Part shown: positions 18,015 to 20,173 of the stretch, piece by piece
How positions within the stretch are numbered: the stretch's first letter is position 1
How the letters are laid out: every line of letters starts with the position of its first letter
Origin: Patescibacteria group bacterium
GTDB lineage: Bacteria > Patescibacteriota > Saccharimonadia > Saccharimonadales > UBA4665
Assembly: GCA_030271625.1 (NCBI GenBank)
Contig: JARXKN010000001.1
Location: 434,001-498,000 of the forward strand
Direction: 5' to 3'
DNA length: 64,000 nt
Translations under genes and position numbers: made by a program
Notes under the pieces: model-generated
Told to the model about the DNA's origin: nothing
What the model saw: the letters and a program-made list of their open reading frames with translations, nothing else
Database searches by the model: none

Positions 18015-18042
18015 TTGACATGAGGCTGAAATGCGTTATGCT
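18015..18042 (+). promoter_or_regulatory. strong promoter of candidate small RNA A
   Basis: TTGACA (18015-18020), 16-bp spacer, TATGCT (18037-18042). It opens 4 nt after the HD gene stop and points at an intergenic stretch without an open frame. The stretch from the -10 onward resembles that of the 33.4-kb candidate RNA. Confidence 0.75.
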
Positions 18043-18048
18043 TATGGT

Positions 18049-18171
18049 AAGTCGTGCGCACTAGCGGCGCCAGGCAAAATAAACATTTTTTCAAAAATAA
18101 AAAAGCACCGCCGCTCGGGTGGGCGCGCACGAATTAAATAAAGCCGGTCAGACTGACTCGGCTTTATTTAA
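18049..18171 (+). ncRNA. candidate structured small RNA A
   Basis: A promoter- and terminator-bounded transcript of about 120 nt. Outer stem TCGTGCGC (18052-18059) / GCGCACGA (18125-18132), 8 bp; inner stem AGCGGCG (18063-18069) / CGCCGCT (18109-18115), 7 bp, around an A/T-rich loop; CGGGTGGGC lies unpaired between the 3' strands. A terminator ends it. No open reading frame of note. The SRP RNA tetraloop signature is absent and I recognise no Rfam-type motif. The downstream corA gene has its own -10 past the terminator, so this is not simply its leader. Confidence 0.6.
18136..18171 (+). terminator. intrinsic terminator of candidate RNA A
   Basis: AAATAAAGCC / GGCTTTATTT stem with an inner GTCA/TGAC pairing. 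Located before the corA -10. Confidence 0.8.
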
Positions 18172-18179
18172 TGGCCATG

Positions 18180-18185
18180 TATAAT
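18180..18185 (+). promoter_or_regulatory. -10 box of corA
   Basis: TATAAT, 20 nt before the corA ATG, just downstream of the RNA A terminator. GGGAAG (about 18195-18200) is the ribosome-binding site. Confidence 0.6.
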
Positions 18186-20116: not shown

Positions 20117-20173
20117 GTAGTACAATATGCATCAGAACCAACAAAACAAATATCCAAAATAAGGAGCCCACCC

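Follow-up and report, generated by a model that had tools for sequence, protein, structure and literature searches.

Stand-alone structured RNA genes are already known from bacteria, and two described families offer the closest comparisons for the gene considered here. The bacterial small SRP RNA (RF00169) is likewise short (about 100 nt) and hairpin-like; 6S RNA (RF00013) is likewise stand-alone and single copy, with its own promoter and a GC-rich interrupted hairpin, in its case of ~180 nt with a central bubble that allows it to mimic a melted promoter. A third comparison is structural, since H-type pseudoknots with an A-rich loop 3 are a known type. The RNA described here differs from the first in having neither the SRP tetraloop nor the symmetric loop, and from the second in the size of its core (~85 nt, with stems of 8 and 6 bp).

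Positions 18015-18173 of the window (the whole stretch of 64,000 nucleotides of Saccharibacteria DNA analysed) hold a complete candidate small-RNA gene, with promoter, structured core and terminator (Table 1), between a gene for an HD-domain protein and corA, with ligA further upstream. Transcription would be expected to start at ~18049 and to give an RNA of ~125 nt including the terminator.

Table 1. Features of the candidate small-RNA gene, in window coordinates.
Feature	Coordinates	Strand	Basis or remark
sigma-70-type promoter TTGACA-16-TATGCT	18015-18042	+	sequence; far more frequent at homologous loci than at control positions
-35 element TTGACA	18015-18020		spacer to -10, 16 bp
-10 element TATGCT	18037-18042		
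predicted small RNA transcript, including terminator	18049-18173	+	ends inferred from -10, terminator and fold (z = -4.9)
P1 5' strand UCGUGCGC	18052-18059	+	partner 18125-18132; 7/8 pairs with compensatory changes
P2 5' strand GCGGCG	18064-18069	+	partner 18109-18114; 6/6 pairs with compensatory changes
A-rich apical region, motifs AAAUAAACA and AAAAAUAAA	18076-18104	+	A-rich motifs recurrent among homologues
P2 3' strand CGCCGC	18109-18114	+	covariation with P2 5' strand
constant segment GGGUGGGC, P2-P1 junction	18117-18124	+	columns invariant or nearly so in alignment A1
P1 3' strand GCGCACGA	18125-18132	+	covariation with P1 5' strand
intrinsic terminator hairpin, U-rich 3' arm	about 18133-18172	+	folding; terminator test at homologous loci
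separate -10 TATAAT ahead of corA	18180-18185	+	sequence

Several elements had been picked out in a sequence-only reading of this DNA, and they are confirmed. The promoter that it placed directly after the HD gene is present, with 10/12 matches to consensus; promoter-like sites number 2 against 4.1 expected in shuffles, so that a lone match is not significant and the case rests on comparison with relatives. There the signal is strong: a promoter score of at least 10/12 at the right distance is found at 58% of 93 homologous loci, against 0.3% of control positions, and strong terminators at 70% of these loci, against 2% of controls. The window's own terminator, also claimed in that reading, escaped a strict scan because its stem is imperfect, and was detected in a looser terminator test. 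Folding of the + strand from 18040 to 18175 gives -50 kcal/mol (z = -4.9), a value that none of 200 shuffles equalled. The region had been described as free of open frames, and a coding reading can be rejected, since homologues differ by indels that are not multiples of three and hence conserve no frame. The separate -10 reported for corA is likewise there, so that corA could be transcribed without read-through. Of the two nested stems, reported as 8 and 7 bp, the outer one holds at 8 bp; the inner one has 7 bp in this genome and 6 bp as a conserved helix.

The comparative evidence for the two stems is abundant. Across 90 sequences, in an alignment that was fitted to the tested structure and so favours it, 96.6% of stem cells are paired, 13 of 14 pairs have changed on both sides, and compensatory cells number 127 against 23 in shuffles, none of 500 shuffles reaching any of the measures; in slid controls the signal collapses. 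RNAalifold recovers both stems from A1, an independent MAFFT alignment. Variants of P1 include UCGUGCGC/GCGCACGA, ACGGGUGU/ACACCCGA and UGGU(G/A)CGC with GCG(C/U)A(A/G)CAG, and those of P2 include GCGGCG/CGCCGC, GGCUCU/AGAGCC and GGGGUA/UGCCCC, among others. G-U pairs in the stems far outnumber A-C juxtapositions (39 vs 5), which marks the + strand as the conserved RNA strand. Against this changing background some elements stay constant, namely the segment GGGUGGGC adjoining the outer stem and the A-rich loop motifs; all parsed homologues retain GGTGGG, even as the stems on either side change in sequence. Two homologues (L132 and L133) carry an apical-loop insertion of ~50-60 nt with hairpin-like sequence of its own. 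A CACCC/GGGUG pseudoknot considered for the window's family was set aside, because the crossing loop would be 0-3 nt and CAC is better read as an extension of P2.

The range of the RNA widens with the sensitivity of the search. It was found by blastn in 32 of 60 relatives, by a first covariance model (R1) in 124 of 295 genomes of the class, and by a second (R2), in which divergent forms were included, in 278 of 343, or 270 of 327 genomes of good quality, nearly always as a single copy. A phylum-wide sample (n = 380) yielded 30 matches inside the order and three weak ones outside it (E 7e-5 to 0.002), which on inspection gave no convincing homologue. When the short string GGGTGGGCGCGCACGA was sought in named genomes, the result was swamped by chance matches in GC-rich genomes, but the names of some matched contigs place them in Saccharibacteria. 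A strict pattern search of viral contigs found no phage-borne copies. Some genomes have no clear match, and one complete relative (G008) lacks the RNA in its syntenic ligA-corA region; together these observations indicate that it is not indispensable everywhere.

LigA lies upstream in 51 of 93 loci; corA lies downstream in 15, all from near relatives. Elsewhere the downstream neighbours are tRNAs or unrelated genes on either strand, and in one genome (G041) corA is more than 40 kb away. Such conservation on one side and variation on the other point to an orthologous, independent gene, one that appears to be vertically inherited and is present in nearly all of the order's Saccharibacteria that were sampled. 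The sequence-only reading had made its candidate, a stand-alone structured RNA of ~120 nt, depend on conservation and covariation in relatives: the RNA proves to be conserved order-wide with abundant compensatory changes, and a discrete transcript is predicted. With promoter and terminator signals, conserved structure and no open frame all found, it is very nearly certain, on comparative grounds, that this is a real RNA family.

Neither Rfam 15 nor the open-access papers searched describe this family. The covariance check that had been proposed for an undescribed candidate gave no Rfam 15 family at the RNA at gathering score, and permissive searches gave scattered matches far below cut-off, with no family appearing twice at the RNA. 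No description was met in the open-access literature, subscription journals lying outside that search. Identity with SRP RNA, discounted from the start for want of its tetraloop, can be rejected: there is no RF00169 covariance match, and neither SRP RNA nor an SRP54 (Ffh) M domain was detected in the window's own genome, so that no Ffh partner was found. SRP RNA above cut-off was found in none of 31 genomes searched. These results suggest that this Saccharibacterium lacks SRP altogether; SRP absence has been published for Parcubacteria (PMC4508563). A tmRNA model matched at another locus (L145:495-571) with 40 bits, just below gathering score, overlapping a permuted-tmRNA match near a tRNA gene.

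One branch of the family carries additional structure. This is a predicted helix, PA, which in family f34 and its allies would join the linker that follows P1 to a segment after the P2 5' strand. Native pairings compared with permuted ones score z = -6.6 for PA (linker alone -4.5), comparable to P1 (-7.0) and P2 (-8.4); the evidence for PA is suggestive only, since permutation ignores relatedness. Together, PA and P2 could form an H-type pseudoknot in f34, PA pairing across P2 and leaving an A-rich connecting loop as in known examples; no family relation to these is known, and in the window's own family no PA signal was found. Where PA extends into GCGC it could also compete with P1. The same branch has a distinctive neighbour: in 22 of 41 f34-like loci the RNA has a gene for an RRM protein close by, in most cases on its upstream side, divergently oriented and ~160-380 nt away, and in 3 on its downstream side. 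No RRM neighbour was found among the other loci scanned, and this limitation to f34-like loci means that the association may be plain synteny. In much of f34 (L105-L149 and L273-L282) the protein encoded there has a single RRM and a glycine-rich tail, and its gene is usually divergent.

How might such an RNA act? We lean, by a modest degree, toward a whole explanation in which a vertically inherited, stand-alone gene gives a discrete transcript that serves as the RNA component of a trans-acting ribonucleoprotein; of this, the trans-acting mechanism is the less certain part. An RNA of ~125 nt would be transcribed from its own promoter and would probably be protein-bound, with P1 and P2 displaying GGGUGGGC and the unpaired A-rich motifs for a partner to bind. 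That partner could be envisioned as an RNA-binding protein, for which the RRM gene of f34-like loci is a clue confined to those loci, or as a large conserved machine, for instance the ribosome or RNA polymerase; either is favoured over pairing with many mRNAs. A more specific version, in which the RNA belongs to a Saccharibacteria-specific class and forms an order-wide ribonucleoprotein with a dedicated (perhaps RRM) protein for a core function run differently elsewhere, is possible and offered tentatively.

Pairing with mRNAs is the rival that fares best, and we regard it as rather unlikely. As a trans-acting antisense RNA, the molecule would use the unpaired GGGUGGGC, perhaps with the A-rich loops, to pair near start codons, and an invariant, mostly unpaired segment of 8 nt is indeed seed-like. 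When two genome samples were examined for targets, GCCCACC occurred in start regions 4 times against 0.6-1.3 expected in the window's own genome and 4 times against 1.5-2.5 in G018, counts so tiny that they are not convincing against genome background; one orthologous pair retains its GCCCACC site in both genomes, but that site seems to lie inside an upstream coding frame. Separately, the window has GAGCCCACCC, the exact complement of GGGUGGGC, just ahead of a start codon at 20165-20173, possibly by chance.

A functional analogue of 6S, binding RNA polymerase and tuning transcription, is improbable. It would be in keeping with the single copy, the strong promoter, the GC-rich double stem with its internal loop, and the lack of any RF00013 match above gathering score in the window or its genome; by eye, putative Saccharibacteria 6S RNAs also share the string GGUGGGYGC with the RNA. 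Yet mimicry of a melted promoter in the manner of 6S needs a longer structure than this core affords. Identity with 6S itself, which had been doubted at the outset, is not supported, RF00013 being unmatched and the core much shorter. Weak 6S-like matches occur in four relatives, and two of these (G009 and G012) also carry the RNA at a separate locus, so the RNA is probably not the lineage's 6S. The 6S-like loci L316-L319 (about 1500-1670; 23-32 bits to RF00013, below cut-off) share CCAGGUGGGUGC and GCUCCC motifs, on the opposite strand in L317; three of the four lie within ~2 kb of rnpB, and they probably represent a divergent Saccharibacteria 6S-like RNA.

That the element is instead a cis-acting leader, riboswitch or attenuator of the downstream gene is very improbable: a structured RNA followed by a terminator ahead of corA, a Mg2+ transporter gene, would suit such a role, as would competition between PA and P1 in f34, but the downstream gene varies, sometimes lying on the opposite strand, and the corA -10 is located after the terminator, so that a corA leader is rejected. 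That the element acts as DNA, whether as a cruciform or as a protein binding site, is scarcely credible, because the strand-specific pairing and the flanking promoter and terminator signals at homologues speak for RNA, even with P1 so nearly palindromic that the covariance model also gives a weak match on the opposite strand.

Structured RNAs that span an order and are missing from Rfam are uncommon. The Saccharibacteria are tiny, reduced-genome parasites of other bacteria, human oral ones included, and for some members of the lineage, such as TM7x, co-culture with the host is established (PMC10768705). An RNA that is near-universal among them and undescribed in RNA databases is probably an important molecular part that has been overlooked, and it points to a core process in these parasites that has gone unstudied.
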